The notes beneath the pieces are model-generated. The model did no database searches, was not told the origin of the DNA, and worked only from the letters and a program-made list of their open reading frames with translations. A stretch of DNA of 64,000 nucleotides from Massilia solisilvae (lineage in GTDB: Bacteria > Pseudomonadota > Gammaproteobacteria > Burkholderiales > Burkholderiaceae_D), in the NCBI RefSeq assembly GCF_024753215.1, contig NZ_JANUGV010000005.1, positions 62,001 through 126,000 on the forward strand, written 5' to 3'. This document shows positions 14,470 through 19,346 of this stretch, in pieces (position 1 is the stretch's first letter; the number at the start of each line of letters is the position of its first letter). A program made the translations under genes and the position numbers.

Positions 14470-14997
14470 TTACGGGGAAGAGGGCAGGCCGGTACGCCGG
14501 GCCCACGGCGGCAGCGCAGGGGCCAGCTCGGCGGCACACCAGCCGGCCGAGATGAAACGGTGCAGCGATGACCAGCGCCAGTCGCGCGCGCGCTGGCACA
14601 GGCCATGGCGCAGCGCATTGCCATGCACGTAATCGACCAGCGCGGCGTATTCCTCGTCGTTGCCGATGCGGTAGTCGCGGTAGTGCGGCTCCCACACCGC
14701 GCCGTCGAGCGCGCCCGGCACGAAGGCTTTGCGCAGCGCCTTGGAAAATGCAATCTTGACCGCGCGCCAGCGGCTGGCGCAGTCATGGTCGCCGGGCGGC
14801 AAGGTCCAGATCGCATGCGCGTGGTCGGGTAGCACCACCCAGGCGTCCACATGGAAGGGTTTGCGCACGCGCGCCTGGCGAATGGCTTCGCCAAAGGCGG
14901 AGAAGTGATCGGTCAGCAGGCTGCTGCCACGGTCGAGCAGCCGCACCGTGAAGAAGAACGTCCCGCCCGGGACCCGGTTGTCACGGTAGTCTGTCAT
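14470..14997 (-). CDS. REP-associated tyrosine transposase (RAYT, Y1-Tnp/HUH)
   Basis: 175 residues related to IS200/IS605 TnpA. The N-terminal VPGGTFFFTVRLLDR, the HUH metal motif in LPDHAHAIW (His59, His61), WRAVKIAFSKAL, and EYAALVDYVHGNALRHGL with the candidate nucleophile Tyr at 117 or 123 match the RAYT family. RAYTs cut REP hairpins next to a GTAG-type tetranucleotide and are usually single-copy, domesticated genes. The ATG at 14997 is chosen because the family starts just before the RxxRVPGGT motif; upstream in-frame codons cover the hairpins at 15006-15068. Confidence 0.86.
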   Translation of the reverse strand: MTDYRDNRVPGGTFFFTVRLLDRGSSLLTDHFSAFGEAIRQARVRKPFHVDAWVVLPDHAHAIWTLPPGDHDCASRWRAVKIAFSKALRKAFVPGALDGAVWEPHYRDYRIGNDEEYAALVDYVHGNALRHGLCQRARDWRWSSLHRFISAGWCAAELAPALPPWARRTGLPSSP

Positions 14998-15005
14998 GGC
15001 TGGAG

Positions 15006-15030
15006 CCAGCGCCGCAAGGGCGGGCGCTGG
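15006..15030. repeat. REP-like hairpin beside RAYT gene
   Basis: CCAGCGCC (15006-15013) pairs with GGCGCTGG (15023-15030) across a nine-base loop. It lies nine bases upstream of the transposase start codon and next to the second hairpin below. Confidence 0.5.
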
Positions 15031-15037
15031 TGAAGCG

Positions 15038-15068
15038 AGGCTCGGCGCCTCCACGAGCCTGATTCTAC
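15038..15068 (-). repeat. GTAG-tagged REP-like hairpin
   Basis: Read on the minus strand, GTAG (15068-15065) is followed after four bases by AGGCTCG, a nine-base loop and CGAGCCT (15060-15038). A GTAG-type tetranucleotide 5' of an imperfect GC-rich hairpin is the layout recognised by RAYT enzymes, and it lies directly upstream of such a gene. Confidence 0.5.
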
Positions 15069-15156
15069 ACAGGGGATGAGCGGCATGCGGTTCCGTTTCC
15101 GCACCCAAACGTCGTGCAGACACATGTTAAAGCCGGGACGGGGCTTGCCACGCTTC

Positions 15157-15327: not shown

Positions 15328-15690
15328 ATGACACTTCTTCGTACCTGCGCTGTGCTGGCCGCCTTGGTCGCCAGCGGCGCGGCCTTCGCCGATACCGATT
15401 GCACGGACCCGATCGCGCAATGGAAACCACACGAAACCTTGCGGCAAGAGGTCGAGCAGCGCGGCTGGGCGGTGCAGCGCATCAAGGTGGACGATGGTTG
15501 CTACCAGGTCAGGGCGACCGACCGCAAGGGCAACAAAGTGAAGGCGAAGTTTTCCCCTGCATCCCTGAAGATTCGTAGCCTGCAAGTAGAGTTCGGGCCC
15601 GATGCCGATGCCTCGGATTACATCCCGCCCGTCCAGCAAGACACCCATATCCGGGGCGATGGACGAATGAGAAAAGGAAATACTCCATGA
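15328..15690 (+). CDS. Periplasmic PepSY-domain protein
   Basis: 120 residues: signal peptide (1-21, cleaved after AFA), a CxD/C pair (Cys near 25 and 58) and one PepSY-like module, LRQEVEQRGWAVQRIKVDDGCYQVRATDRKGNKVKAKFSP abbreviated here to its ends at about residues 38-77. PepSY modules are small periplasmic domains often associated with redox or heme systems. Its stop overlaps the next ATG by four bases, and it opens a four-gene operon with DUF2271, a PepSY-TM reductase and ApbE. Confidence 0.8.
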   Translation: MTLLRTCAVLAALVASGAAFADTDCTDPIAQWKPHETLRQEVEQRGWAVQRIKVDDGCYQVRATDRKGNKVKAKFSPASLKIRSLQVEFGPDADASDYIPPVQQDTHIRGDGRMRKGNTP

Positions 15691-16157
15691 AAAAACTGAC
15701 GACTTATATGTGCGTCGCGGGCGCCTTGACGCTGCCTGTGCTGGCGCAGGCGAGACCGGTCACGCTCAATACCCAGCTGCAAAATTACGGCGGCAATGGC
15801 GCTTACCTGGCAATTTACCTCACTGACGCTGCGGGCCAATACAAGAAGACTTTGTGGGTCGCCGGGAAGAAATCGAAGTACTACAAGCACCTGAGCGCCT
15901 GGTCGCGCGGCAGTGGGCTCAAGGCAAGCGAATTCGACGGCGTTACCGGGGCCAGCGTCGGCAGCGGCAAATCGCTCAAGGTCACGGTGGACCTGGCCGA
16001 CGTGCTGATCGACGCCGGCTACGAAATCCGGATCGACAGCGCGGTGGAAGACGGGCGCGACAATCCGGCCGAGGTGCGCGTGCCGCTGACGAAATCGGGC
16101 GCCGGCAAGCCGGTCAAGGGCAAGGGCTACGTCAGCACCTTCAAGTACGACCTGTGA
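15687..16157 (+). CDS. DUF2271 periplasmic protein, predicted FMN-carrying
   Basis: 156 residues with a signal peptide (1-22, cleaved after QAR or AQA) and a DUF2271 domain (NTQLQNYGGNGAYLAIYLTD through to VSTFKYDL). At residues 84-90 it has DGVTGAS, a full match to the ApbE flavinylation consensus Dxx(S/T)GA(S/T), with Thr87 as the predicted FMN attachment residue (codon 15945-15947). ApbE attaches FMN through a phosphoester to such a threonine in NqrC, RnfG and related carriers. With ApbE and a membrane flavoreductase in the same operon, the simplest reading is a periplasmic flavin electron carrier. Its electron acceptor is unknown. Confidence 0.85.
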   Translation: MKKLTTYMCVAGALTLPVLAQARPVTLNTQLQNYGGNGAYLAIYLTDAAGQYKKTLWVAGKKSKYYKHLSAWSRGSGLKASEFDGVTGASVGSGKSLKVTVDLADVLIDAGYEIRIDSAVEDGRDNPAEVRVPLTKSGAGKPVKGKGYVSTFKYDL

Positions 16158-16168
16158 CCCCCTGACGC

Positions 16169-18388
16169 ATGCTGCGCAAGATTCACTCGCTCCCGGGGCT
16201 CATCGCCGCACTGCTCGTCATGCTCCTCGGGATCACGGGAGCAGTGCTGTCGCTCGATCCCGCCATTGACCGGCTCGGTACCAGCATCCCGGCACACCTG
16301 AGCGTGGCCGAACTGGCCGGCCGCGTGGTGGCGCACTACCCCGGGGCCGAACAGATCCAGCGCACGCCCTCGGGCGGGATCATCGTCTACTACCGCAGCG
16401 ACAGCGGCGCCGGCGCGGACCGCGTCGATCCGCTTACCGGCAGCCGCATCGAACCCTATGTTCCTTCGGCATTCGCGCGCTGGACCAAGCAGCTGCACAG
16501 GTCCTTGCTGCTCGACACCACCGGGCGCGCCACCACCGGCATCACGGCCATCGTGATGCTGGTGCTGTGCGTGTCGGGCCTGCTGCTGCTGGTCAAGCGG
16601 GTTGGCGGATGGCGCCAGGTGGCAGGGCCATTGCGTGGCAATCGCAGCCAGCGCTGGCATGCCGAGGTGGGCCGCATCGCCATTGCCGGCTTGCTGTTGT
16701 CGGCGCTGACAGGCACCTACATGTCGGCCGCCACGTTCAGCCTGGTCTCCGATGGCACGCAGGACGAGCCCGACTTTCCTGCAACTACATCAGGCGGCCC
16801 GCCGGCCCCGGTGGCCCGCTTGCCGGCTTTGGCCGCGACGGACCTTGCGCAGCTGCGCGAACTGGTGTTGCCGGACCCCCGCGACAGCGCCGCTGTCTAT
16901 ACCCTTCGCACGAGCCAGGGGGACGGCTATGTGGACCAGTCGAGCGGCAAGTTGCTGGTCTTTCGCGCGCACAGCGGCGTGCGCGATACGTACGAACTGA
17001 TCTACAAGCTGCACACGGGCGAGGGCCTGTGGTGGCTGGGCCTGCTGCTGGGCCTGTGCGCGCTCGGCGCGGCCTGGCTGGCGGCAACCGGCGCAATCGT
17101 CTGGTGGCAACGGCAACGCGCCAAGCCGCGTATTGCCGGCAACAGCCCTGCACAGTCGGCCGAGACATTGATCCTGGTCGGCAGCGAAAACAACAGCACA
17201 TGGGGATTCGCGCGCGTGCTGCACGACGCGCTGCGCAAGGCCGGGCAGCGGGTGCATACGGCGCCGATGAACCAGGCGCCGTTCCAGCGCAGCCCCGCGC
17301 GCCTGGTGTTCATTCTCACCGCGACCTATGGCGATGGCGAGGCTCCTTCGTCCGCCAACCAGTTCCTGGCGCAGCTGGCGCGGCGAGCTCCCGACCCGGC
17401 GACGAAATTCGCCGTGCTTGCTTTCGGCGACCGCCAATTCCCCAGATTCTGCCAGTTCGGCAAAGACGTGGACGCGGCGCTCGGTGCGCTTGGTTGCCAG
17501 CGCTTGCTGGATCTGGCGACGATCAACCGCCAGTCGTCGCAGGAATTCGCGCGCTGGGGTCTGGCCGTCGGCCCGCTGCTTGGGCTGGCGCTGGACCTCG
17601 AACACACGCCGGCACATCCCAAAACCTTCCCGCTGTACCTGCGCGAACGGATCGACTATGGCATCGAGGAGTCCGAGCCCACCGTTGTGTTGCGCTTTGA
17701 CGCCGGGGCGTCGCCGGCCCCTGCCGGACCGCTGCAACGCCTGTTCAGGCGGCACCGGCTGCCGCACTTCGAGGCAGGCGACCTGGTGGGAATCATCCCG
17801 CCGGGCAGCCCGATGCCGCGCTTTTACTCGCTGGCCAGCGGCTCGCGCAACGGTGTGCTCGAAATCTGCGTGCGCAAGCAACCGCACGGCGTGTGTTCGA
17901 CCTACCTGCATGGACTGCAAACCGGTGAGCGCATCGACGCCTTCATCCAGCCCAATCCGCAGTTCCGCCCGGCCTCCGGAAAGGCGCCGGTGATCCTGAT
18001 CGGCGCCGGCACCGGCATCGGCCCGCTCGCCGGCTTCATCCGGAACAATACGGGCAAGTACCCGATGTACCTGTACTGGGGCGGCCGCAACCCCGAGTCC
18101 GACTTCCTCTACGAGCCCGAGCTCAAGAACTATCTGGCCGACCGCCGGCTCACCCAGCTGCACACGGCGTTCTCGCGCGTGCACAACGGCGTGCACGTGC
18201 AGACCAGGCTGACCGAGGATGCCGACAACATGCGCAAGCTGATCGAAAACGGCGGCCAGGTGCTGGTGTGCGGCAGCAGCGCGATGGCCGGCAGCGTGCG
18301 CATGGCGCTGGACGAGATTCTCGCTCCCATCCACTTGAGCGTGCTGACGCTCAAAACGAATGGACGCTACCGTGAAGACGTCTTCTGA
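16169..18388 (+). CDS. PepSY-TM / flavodoxin / NADPH-flavin reductase fusion
   Basis: 739 residues in three parts. A PepSY-TM membrane domain (about 1-320) has helices near 8-30, 113-137, 165-185 and 286-310. A flavodoxin domain starts near 332 (LILVGSENNSTWGFARVL, then TATYGDGEAPSS). An FAD/NADPH reductase domain of the sulfite-reductase/P450-reductase type starts near 480, with RFYSLASG for FAD and GAGTGIGPLAGFIR for NADPH. It should carry electrons from cytoplasmic NADPH through FAD, FMN and the membrane part to the periplasm. It lies 11 bases after DUF2271 and overlaps apbE by 29 bases. Confidence 0.88.
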   Translation: MLRKIHSLPGLIAALLVMLLGITGAVLSLDPAIDRLGTSIPAHLSVAELAGRVVAHYPGAEQIQRTPSGGIIVYYRSDSGAGADRVDPLTGSRIEPYVPSAFARWTKQLHRSLLLDTTGRATTGITAIVMLVLCVSGLLLLVKRVGGWRQVAGPLRGNRSQRWHAEVGRIAIAGLLLSALTGTYMSAATFSLVSDGTQDEPDFPATTSGGPPAPVARLPALAATDLAQLRELVLPDPRDSAAVYTLRTSQGDGYVDQSSGKLLVFRAHSGVRDTYELIYKLHTGEGLWWLGLLLGLCALGAAWLAATGAIVWWQRQRAKPRIAGNSPAQSAETLILVGSENNSTWGFARVLHDALRKAGQRVHTAPMNQAPFQRSPARLVFILTATYGDGEAPSSANQFLAQLARRAPDPATKFAVLAFGDRQFPRFCQFGKDVDAALGALGCQRLLDLATINRQSSQEFARWGLAVGPLLGLALDLEHTPAHPKTFPLYLRERIDYGIEESEPTVVLRFDAGASPAPAGPLQRLFRRHRLPHFEAGDLVGIIPPGSPMPRFYSLASGSRNGVLEICVRKQPHGVCSTYLHGLQTGERIDAFIQPNPQFRPASGKAPVILIGAGTGIGPLAGFIRNNTGKYPMYLYWGGRNPESDFLYEPELKNYLADRRLTQLHTAFSRVHNGVHVQTRLTEDADNMRKLIENGGQVLVCGSSAMAGSVRMALDEILAPIHLSVLTLKTNGRYREDVF

Positions 18389-19346
18389 ACAGCCTGCCTT
18401 GCAGCGCTACAGCCTCAATGGAAACACGATGGGGACGCGCTACACGGCCATCTTTTACGCGCCGGCGGGCCTTGATACCGCCGCCATCGGCGCCAGCCTG
18501 TTTGCCGCCGTGGACAAGGTGGACCGGCAAATGTCGAACTGGATACCCGAGTCCGACCTGTGCCGCCTGAACGCCGCGCCGGGCAACAGCTGGATCGAGG
18601 TGCCGCCGGAGCTGGCGCATGTGCTCGAGACGGGCCTGACGGTAGGCCGGGAATCGCATGGCGCCTTTGACATGAACGTGGGGGCGCTGGTCGATGCATG
18701 GGGTTTCGGCCCGGCCGGGCGGACCCTGCCGGCGCACGACGCAGTGCCGCAGGAACAGCCGGCCGCGCGCTCCGTCGACACGCTGGAGGTGAACCGCGCA
18801 CGCCACCAGGTGCGCAAGCGTGGTCCGGTGAAGCTGGACCTGTGCGGCATCGCCAAGGGCTATGGCGTGGACCAGCTCGCATACTGCCTGGACCGCTGGA
18901 ACATCTCCAGCTACCTGGTCGGCATTGACGGCGAAATGCGCGCGCGCGGCGACAAGCCTGGCGGCGAGGCCTGGGCCGTCGCGATCGAGCAGCCGACCTT
19001 TGGCAAGCGCGAAGTCGCCGGCGTGATGGAGTTGAACGACGCGGCCATTGCCACGTCCGGGGATTACCGCCACTGGGTCGAGATCGATGGCAAGCGCTAC
19101 GCCCACACGATGGACCCCAGGTCGGGACAGCCATTATCGAATGGCCTCGCGGCGGTCACGGTGCTCATGCCGACATGCATGCTGGCCGATGCCTGGGCAA
19201 CGGCGCTGATGGTGCTGGGCGAGCAGGATGGCGTCGCCCTGGCCAGGGAAAAGGGCATCGATGCGCTGTTCGTGCTGCGCGAAGGTGACCAGCTACGGGA
19301 AGTGGTGGTAGCCGGCCGCCTGCTGGGCGACGCAAGCAGCACCTGA
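18360..19346 (+). CDS. apbE: FAD:protein FMN transferase (ApbE family)
   Basis: 328 residues of the ApbE fold: NTMGTRYTAIFY at the N-terminus, the VDKVDRQMSNWIPESDLCRLN block, VKLDLCGIAKGYGVDQLA, and YAHTMDPRSGQPLSNGLAAVTVL with the metal/flavin-binding DPRSG. ApbE cleaves FAD and joins FMN to threonine or serine in carrier proteins. No signal peptide or lipobox is visible, so either it acts in the cytoplasm before export or the true start differs. It overlaps the reductase gene by 29 bases, so the two are coupled. The DUF2271 protein in the same operon is the obvious substrate. Confidence 0.9.
   Translation: MDATVKTSSEQPALQRYSLNGNTMGTRYTAIFYAPAGLDTAAIGASLFAAVDKVDRQMSNWIPESDLCRLNAAPGNSWIEVPPELAHVLETGLTVGRESHGAFDMNVGALVDAWGFGPAGRTLPAHDAVPQEQPAARSVDTLEVNRARHQVRKRGPVKLDLCGIAKGYGVDQLAYCLDRWNISSYLVGIDGEMRARGDKPGGEAWAVAIEQPTFGKREVAGVMELNDAAIATSGDYRHWVEIDGKRYAHTMDPRSGQPLSNGLAAVTVLMPTCMLADAWATALMVLGEQDGVALAREKGIDALFVLREGDQLREVVVAGRLLGDASST

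Follow-up and report, generated by a model that had tools for sequence, protein, structure and literature searches.

An ApbE without a signal peptide beside a secreted DUF2271 protein in a PepSY-type flavinylation operon of Massilia solisilvae, and a proposed order of FMN loading

Gene clusters that pair a PepSY-like membrane protein with ApbE, the enzyme that transfers flavin mononucleotide (FMN) from flavin adenine dinucleotide (FAD) to protein, form a published class of flavinylation systems, of which 3220 clusters have been counted, 2833 of them with DUF2271, along with 1077 PepSY genes that carry a NAD-binding domain (PMC8238504, Meheust et al. 2021). Here we describe an operon of this class in a 64,000-nucleotide stretch of the Massilia solisilvae genome (contig NZ_JANUGV010000005.1, positions 62,001 to 126,000; this whole stretch is called the window below), which encodes in order a PepSY_2 protein, a DUF2271 protein, a fusion of PepSY_TM with a diflavin reductase, and ApbE. 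The operon is a new member, and a distinct subtype, of the published class; the new point is the order in which its DUF2271 protein may be loaded with FMN and exported.

Like the clusters of PMC8238504, the window operon brings together a PepSY_TM protein, a DUF2271 protein with the motif [ST]GA[ST] and ApbE, and a PepSY protein with a NAD-binding domain is reported there as well. It differs from what is described there in that PepSY_TM is joined to the diflavin reductase in a single protein, a PepSY_2 gene replaces the secreted DUF4198 (1500 clusters in that survey), the predicted acceptor is Ser instead of Thr, and ApbE has no signal peptide. The Caulobacter genes CCNA_03155-03159 (PMC12004947) likewise include a PepSY-family membrane protein, DUF2271 and a flavin-dependent reductase and are linked to iron, but this locus is a Fur target and contains DUF4198, which the window operon lacks. 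FoxB and HiuB, PepSY_TM reductases with two His pairs that are shown or predicted to bind two hemes (PMC11334425, PMC13001220), resemble the membrane half of the window fusion, whereas the parts of these articles that describe them mention neither a fused reductase nor a flavinylated carrier. A cytosolic ApbE of Klebsiella (PMC12052999) is without a signal peptide, as in the window, but its target is cytosolic and the partner of the window ApbE is secreted.

For comparison, we read 97 stretches from family and phylum samples (31 from 56 DUF2271-positive genomes of 145, and 66 from 63 genomes, out of 65 that scored above the cut-off among 398) and 80 named loci, the named and unnamed loci coming partly from the same genome. 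In the layout that we call type I, a short PepSY protein and DUF2271 are followed by a gap sized for the published DUF4198 gene, by ApbE and by a separate reductase; type II is the layout of the window, and its ApbE usually overlaps the upstream gene by 17 nucleotides (nt). Loci without the fusion were labelled type I, except for seven truncated or gene-poor ones that we assigned manually to type II, and "type I" includes a few other layouts. ApbE stands alone in 70 of the 97 stretches, is fused in 4 and is missing from 23. The fusion is present at 100 loci. ApbE accompanies it in the same stretch at 87 of them, 73 of which also hold a PepSY_2 open reading frame (ORF); the 13 without ApbE comprise three cut by contig ends and others that include Marinobacter, Vibrio, Rheinheimera and Vreelandella clusters. 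Seven genomes of the same genus have a high-scoring DUF2271, and the six that we read are all type I, whereas the window genome has type II only.

ApbE and its secreted substrate

The accepted scheme has ApbE complete exported flavoproteins in the periplasm, and so poses the question of how FAD, a cytosolic product, reaches that compartment. The ApbEs described for exported targets are periplasmic and mostly lipid-anchored, and the cytosolic ones have cytosolic targets (PMC12052999). The original prediction took DUF2271 to be the substrate of the window ApbE, and this link is supported; what it missed is a compartment problem, namely that DUF2271 has a signal peptide and ApbE has none. The N-terminus of the window ApbE is a polar stretch and resembles neither a lipoprotein nor a signal-peptide start. 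A missed upstream start that would supply a signal peptide was rejected, an in-frame stop lying at 18345, five codons upstream of the first ApbE start.

The same absence is general among relatives. Each ApbE was scored by the best 10-residue Kyte-Doolittle mean in a stretch of at most 60 residues ahead of the MGT motif, a reach that also led us to reject signal peptides missed in relatives, and a score below 2.2 was read as no hydrophobic N-terminus. Scores below 2.2 were obtained for 130 of 132 distinct standalone ApbEs linked to DUF2271 (82/82 in type II, 48/50 in type I), for 2 of 28 control ApbEs not seen linked to DUF2271, and for 2 of 15 ApbEs from genomes in which DUF2271 is unlinked (Mann-Whitney P = 5e-15, an optimistic value given the relatedness of the proteins). 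The controls were the best matches, with 1.5-kb flanks, from the 29 other genomes that scored highest in a search of 75, so that a distant type II DUF2271 would be missed. The two linked ApbEs above the threshold are L095, which has a lipobox, and L080 (2.27), whose segment looks by eye like that of its relatives; five further type I proteins score 1.98-2.14. A short N-terminal motif, approximately RVLIP, occurs in L080, L106, L112, L114 and many other type I ApbEs and is absent from type II.

In a tree of 120 ApbE rows (type I represented by its first 32 only, named type II thinned to a third, L095 left out), the linked proteins form well-supported type II (100/100) and type I (99/96) groups that are joined weakly (88/32), and the loss of the signal may therefore have had one or two origins. 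Since the linked ApbEs fall into conserved groups, annotation error or decay does not account for them.

The substrate, on the other side, appears to be exported. A hydrophobic N-terminal segment (8-residue mean of at least 2.0) is present in 145 of 162 DUF2271 domains, two of the lower ones being wrong script picks, and a twin-arginine-like pattern matched once among 162 non-fused domains (L195, before the usual start); Sec is thus the likely route. Tat export of folded, already loaded DUF2271 was accordingly rejected as a general route, a looser RR pattern having flagged 7 of 99 DUF2271 rows. In the open-access literature searched, we found no discussion of a signal-less ApbE paired with a secreted substrate; a third Paracoccus ApbE is noted in passing as "predicted to be cytoplasmic" (PMC7660919).

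We propose that the dedicated ApbE stays in the cytosol, where it would recognise the DUF2271 preprotein by its short linear motif and transfer FMN to it from the FAD present there, either ahead of Sec export or in the course of it; FAD itself would then not need to be exported. A seven-residue tag suffices for ApbE, protein ends being the best sites and surface or internal loops being less well modified (PMC12052999); ApbE recognises so short a tag that an unfolded preprotein is a plausible substrate. The proposal is also the simplest reading, with the fewest parts. Bonardi et al., in 2011, are said to have found that SecYEG passes sizeable conjugates.

We searched 80 DUF2271-positive genomes for ApbE: 9 have no ApbE in the DUF2271 stretch, 2 have fused ApbE only and 69 have a standalone linked ApbE. 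In 40 of these 69 the linked ApbE is the only ApbE match (counted by hand from coordinates, and with borderline scores of 2.04-2.27 in four). These genomes speak against the standard model, in which flavinylation is periplasmic and the linked ApbE either is exported by an unrecognised route or is redundant, or has another role, with a lipoprotein ApbE doing the work. The conservation of the linked groups speaks against it too, and for a separate role no second Dxx[ST]GA[ST] was found in a scan that covered the 64-kb window. We consider this model unlikely for the linked systems. Periplasmic loading of DUF2271 probably does occur in genomes without a linked ApbE, since all nine unlinked genomes searched (from 23 ApbE-less loci) have, elsewhere, an ApbE with a hydrophobic or lipobox N-terminus.

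Several points weigh against cytosolic loading, and the first of them count directly for the periplasmic model. The window genome has a second ApbE (L002) with a lipobox, and more than one ApbE is present in 18 of 20 type II genomes, so that in this subtype a periplasmic enzyme may usually be at hand. Periplasmic location is essential for the Salmonella ApbE, and a tag placed in an internal loop is modified less efficiently than one at a terminus (both PMC12052999). The ApbE construct of A. ursilacus is called "signal peptide-truncated" (PMC8238504); A. ursilacus may differ, or the term may be loose. In the open-access literature searched we found no experiment in which Sec moves an FMN-bearing chain. 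Signal peptides were judged by hydrophobicity and by eye rather than by SignalP, and the preference of ApbE for Thr, considered below, sits poorly with the Ser of the window subtype.

Genomes whose only ApbE is the linked one are distributed unevenly (type I 38/49, type II 2/20), so that the lack of a periplasmic ApbE makes a strong argument in type I but a thin one in the type II of the window. Because the one-ApbE genomes are nearly all type I, we lowered our confidence in the explanation as a whole, and rate it, like cytosolic loading before Sec export, at slightly better than even. That the whole branch works in this way, a cytosolic ApbE loading the unfolded Sec preprotein and SecYEG passing it with its cofactor while unlinked and fused DUF2271 proteins use the periplasmic route, we would regard as evenly balanced. 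If true, extracytosolic flavoproteins could be made without FAD export, and Sec would be shown to be able to carry a covalently bound flavin. A conserved signal-less ApbE with a secreted substrate, alone in 40 of 69 genomes, makes this different order of events directly testable.

Two further ApbE genes of the window genome have flavin-related neighbours. At ~5 kb from the lipoprotein ApbE L002 lies a 734-codon frame that contains an FMN_bind domain and that, from its size, we take to be NosR-like. At L003, an FMN_bind protein (929-1480), an ApbE (~1471-2292) and a small protein, membrane-like by eye (2296-2763), follow one another; this third ApbE has no signal peptide and immediately follows the FMN_bind protein, which is secreted and has an SGAT motif, so that the pair poses the same compartment puzzle outside DUF2271.

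The predicted FMN acceptor of the DUF2271 protein

The motif DGVTGAS is found at residues 84-90 of the window DUF2271 protein, as was originally noted, and a scan of all six frames of the window gave no second Dxx[ST]GA[ST]. Thr does occupy position 87, yet it is not the expected carrier of FMN: the residue to which ApbE joins FMN is the Ser or Thr at the C-terminal end of the motif (PMC12052999, section 8), which in the window is Ser90. In an alignment of 99 DUF2271 domains the Ser90 column holds Thr 74 times, Ser 25 times and no other residue, whereas the Thr87 column varies (Ser 58, Thr 39, Ala 2), and Thr87 was therefore rejected. On both grounds we have high confidence that Ser90 is the FMN site. 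The correction decides which mutant is informative, the T87A mutant being aimed at the wrong residue.

The kind of acceptor follows the layout. Among 166 distinct domains, a script read the last motif position as Ser in 90 of 92 type II domains; in the other two it had taken the wrong stretch, and the domains actually present there have DGVSGAS, so that Ser with GA is retained throughout the type II domains examined. Domains of type I or other layout end the motif in Thr in 69 of 70 cases (Ser in one), as do all four ApbE-DUF2271 fusions. The original prediction would have been refuted had most apbE-linked DUF2271 homologues lacked the motif, which is not the case: 50 of 76 DUF2271 domains with linked or fused ApbE (75 loci) have the strict Dxx[ST]GA[ST], 56 have [ST]GA[ST], and all 76 have Ser or Thr in the acceptor column. 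The strict count falls short because in type I and fused proteins GA drifts to GP, SA, SP, QP, RP or RE. In four loci (L126, L127, L129, L130), ApbE and DUF2271 form one protein with a signal-like start and the motif has drifted to ARET, TRPT, SRPT and SGPT, respectively; by eye the start is signal-like in all four of the fusions, three scoring above 2.2 and the other 1.76.

A direct precedent comes from the DUF2271 protein of A. ursilacus, which is flavinylated by its own ApbE on co-expression in E. coli and is negative as a Thr-to-Ala mutant (PMC8238504); its acceptor is Thr, where the window subtype has Ser. A change from Thr to Ser lowers flavinylation by 10-55%, Thr being preferred (PMC12052999), and in the window protein occupancy may be lower or ApbE may have adapted to Ser. 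This preference lends some weight to another explanation, in which the linked ApbE has a cytosolic target, like the Klebsiella enzyme that acts on a cytosolic fumarate reductase (PMC12052999), and the DUF2271 of this subtype is not flavinylated, its Ser motif being vestigial. We consider this improbable, as Ser and GA have been kept throughout type II, the two genes share an operon, usually with the 17-nt ApbE overlap, and the window offers no alternative motif.

Operon layout and predicted electron path

The features of the operon are listed in Table 1. The four overlapping or tightly spaced genes are as originally described in their frames, coordinates and domains; the first two overlap by 4 nt, 11 nt separate the second from the third, and the last two overlap by 29 nt, or by 17 nt if ApbE starts at GTG 18372. 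The ApbE ORF runs from ATG 18360 to 19346 (328 aa), and GTG 18372, the preferred start, aligns with the usual start of its relatives.

Table 1. Features of the flavinylation operon (positions in the window)
Feature	Position	Strand	Evidence and remarks
PepSY_2 protein, 120 amino acids (aa)	15328..15690	+	Pfam PF13670, 93.8 bits, E 6e-27; Sec-type signal peptide by eye
DUF2271 protein, 156 aa	15687..16157	+	Pfam PF10029, 127.3 bits (cut-off 27.3), E 4e-37; Sec-type signal peptide by eye, no twin-arginine motif; predicted periplasmic covalent-FMN carrier
Motif DGVTGAS, DUF2271 residues 84-90	15936..15956	+	predicted FMN acceptor Ser90, codon 15954-15956; position by script
PepSY_TM - flavodoxin - NADP(H)-reductase fusion, 739 aa	16169..18388	+	Pfam
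ApbE, FAD:protein FMN transferase, no signal peptide	18372..19346	+	Pfam PF02424, 274.8 bits, E 1e-81

The operon falls within the eLife 2021 operational definition of a PepSY-like flavinylated system, that is, a PF03929 or PF16357 protein clustered with ApbE, FMN-bind, DUF2271 or DUF3570, at least one of which has a signal peptide or lipidation site. Its ApbE exceeds the PF02424 cut-off and, aligned to 5mgy and 6nxi (PDB), retains the TSGDYR, H-x2-DP and AD-x2-(A/S)T segments, which we take to be active-site segments; its score of 209.7 bits is below the NCBIfam ApbE equivalog cut-off of 498. DUF2271, the only match to this family in the 5.2-Mb genome, combines a PF10029 score over the cut-off with the acceptor motif at the aligned position. 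Its nearest named relatives, in a genome collection from which very close records may be left out, are Massilia proteins of 81 and 85% identity. A sequence search of the PDB gave no match for it (best E 0.41), and its structural model, which is only fair (mean predicted local distance difference test score (pLDDT) 71, and 55 in block 81-90 with the motif), found no PDB fold match at E <= 0.001. As to the PepSY_2 protein, it is possibly a docking partner or regulator.

The fusion matches PepSY_TM (E 1e-39), Flavodoxin_1 (3e-16) and NAD_binding_1 (2e-11), with a marginal FAD_binding_6 match (19.4 bits against a cut-off of 21.1). In sequence and fold, its C-terminal half resembles the reductase domains of cytochrome P450 reductase, CysJ and nitric-oxide synthase, and its flavodoxin, FAD (marginal in Pfam) and NADPH-binding domains are those of a diflavin reductase of the CysJ/cytochrome P450 reductase type; it is not CysJ itself (163.8 versus 668 bits). 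Reduced nicotinamide adenine dinucleotide phosphate (NADPH), rather than its non-phosphorylated counterpart NADH, is the inferred donor, judging from this kinship and from an SR...YVQ-like segment, presumably a signature, with H in place of Y in the window. The positive residues after helices 2 and 4 place the reductase half in the cytosol by prediction.

In the AlphaFold model of the fusion (mean pLDDT 82, predicted template-modelling score (pTM) 0.58), four transmembrane helices span 8-36, 119-145, 159-189 and 288-318. His6, His110, His164 and His282 are invariant in 25 aligned fusions (the window and 24 others) and are predicted, from conservation and model, to be the ligands of two b-hemes, His6/His164 at one membrane face and His110/His282 at the other in the model, the arrangement expected of di-heme PepSY_TM proteins; the four residues sit at the helix ends expected from that comparison, the heme itself being a prediction. 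FoxB was absent among the 50 fold matches listed and the best 60 of 147 sequence matches, lists that are dominated by the reductase half.

These parts suggest a path in which electrons would pass from NADPH to FAD and FMN in the cytosolic flavodoxin/reductase half, then to a cytoplasmic-side heme b (His6/His164) and a periplasmic-side heme b (His110/His282), and finally to an FMN whose phosphate links it to Ser90 in the periplasmic DUF2271 protein, which would reduce an oxidised substrate, chelated ferric iron being the likeliest one. The original prediction had drawn the chain as NADPH, FAD, FMN, membrane and periplasmic FMN carrier; the cassette stands, and the two predicted b-hemes of PepSY_TM were missing from the chain. 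That the cassette exports electrons across the membrane with DUF2271 as the ApbE substrate is supported, as are the links of DUF2271, PepSY-TM and ApbE known from genome surveys: the class is published, with the E. coli co-expression test described above (PMC8238504). We are highly confident that the operon is an electron-export cassette; we infer the direction of flow, together with the occupancy of its cofactors.

On the minus strand upstream (14470-15123), an ORF resembles by eye what we take to be a transposase associated with repetitive extragenic palindromes (REP), with no Pfam match at 1e-5.

Terminal acceptor, neighbouring genes and control

Ferric iron is our best guess for the terminal acceptor, by analogy with relatives, and we would give it an even chance. 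It rests on the VIT1 and ferric-reductase neighbours of related clusters, on the VIT1 and TonB receptor genes found at PepSY-like clusters (PMC8238504), and on the Caulobacter type I locus, a Fur target that is needed under ethylenediaminetetraacetic acid (PMC12004947). At 29 type II loci, 77 neighbouring proteins chosen from 148 included 14 response regulators, 13 histidine kinases, 7 VIT1 and 4 Ferric_reduct proteins. Counting against iron in the window itself, no VIT1 or ferric reductase gene adjoins the operon among the ORFs and Pfam matches inspected; a VIT1 gene is present elsewhere in the genome.

A ferric-reductase-like protein is encoded upstream of the type II cluster at L192, L241-L243, L246, L247 and L249-L252, with VIT1 downstream in some. 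The three such proteins that were scanned (L192, L241, L246) have PF01794 and an FAD domain, and an iterated FldFNR profile also matched proteins upstream of some clusters that are ferric-reductase-like by Pfam.

The cassette may be read correctly and still serve another acceptor, such as copper, an oxidised periplasmic protein or an oxygen-limited respiratory need, a possibility that we rate somewhat below even. It would fit the two-component genes beside other clusters, a Bordetella PepSY_TM protein linked to heme-copper oxidase function (PMC13038864, in whose text a search for ApbE, flavodoxin and the like found none), and Fnr-type boxes, with one mismatch or none, which precede 7 of 40 type II clusters, all seven from the family of the window. 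The neighbours of relatives and the iron phenotypes of the Caulobacter locus (PMC12004947) argue against it, as does the window itself, where the best candidate box has three mismatches and is no better than shuffled sequences. Fnr was accordingly rejected as a common regulator that includes the window, the box being found in relatives only.

The boxes lie upstream at L046, L048, L049, L050, L174, L175 and L191. A -10-like element follows 21-23 nt downstream in five of these seven, and also at L198, whose box has two mismatches; class II activator sites have this spacing. A divergent response-regulator/histidine-kinase pair adjoins PepSY_2 in clusters of Pseudomonas and Lysobacter, as at L196, and by gene size and family tally the same pair is present at L200, L205, L212, L220, L224, L229, L231 and L236.

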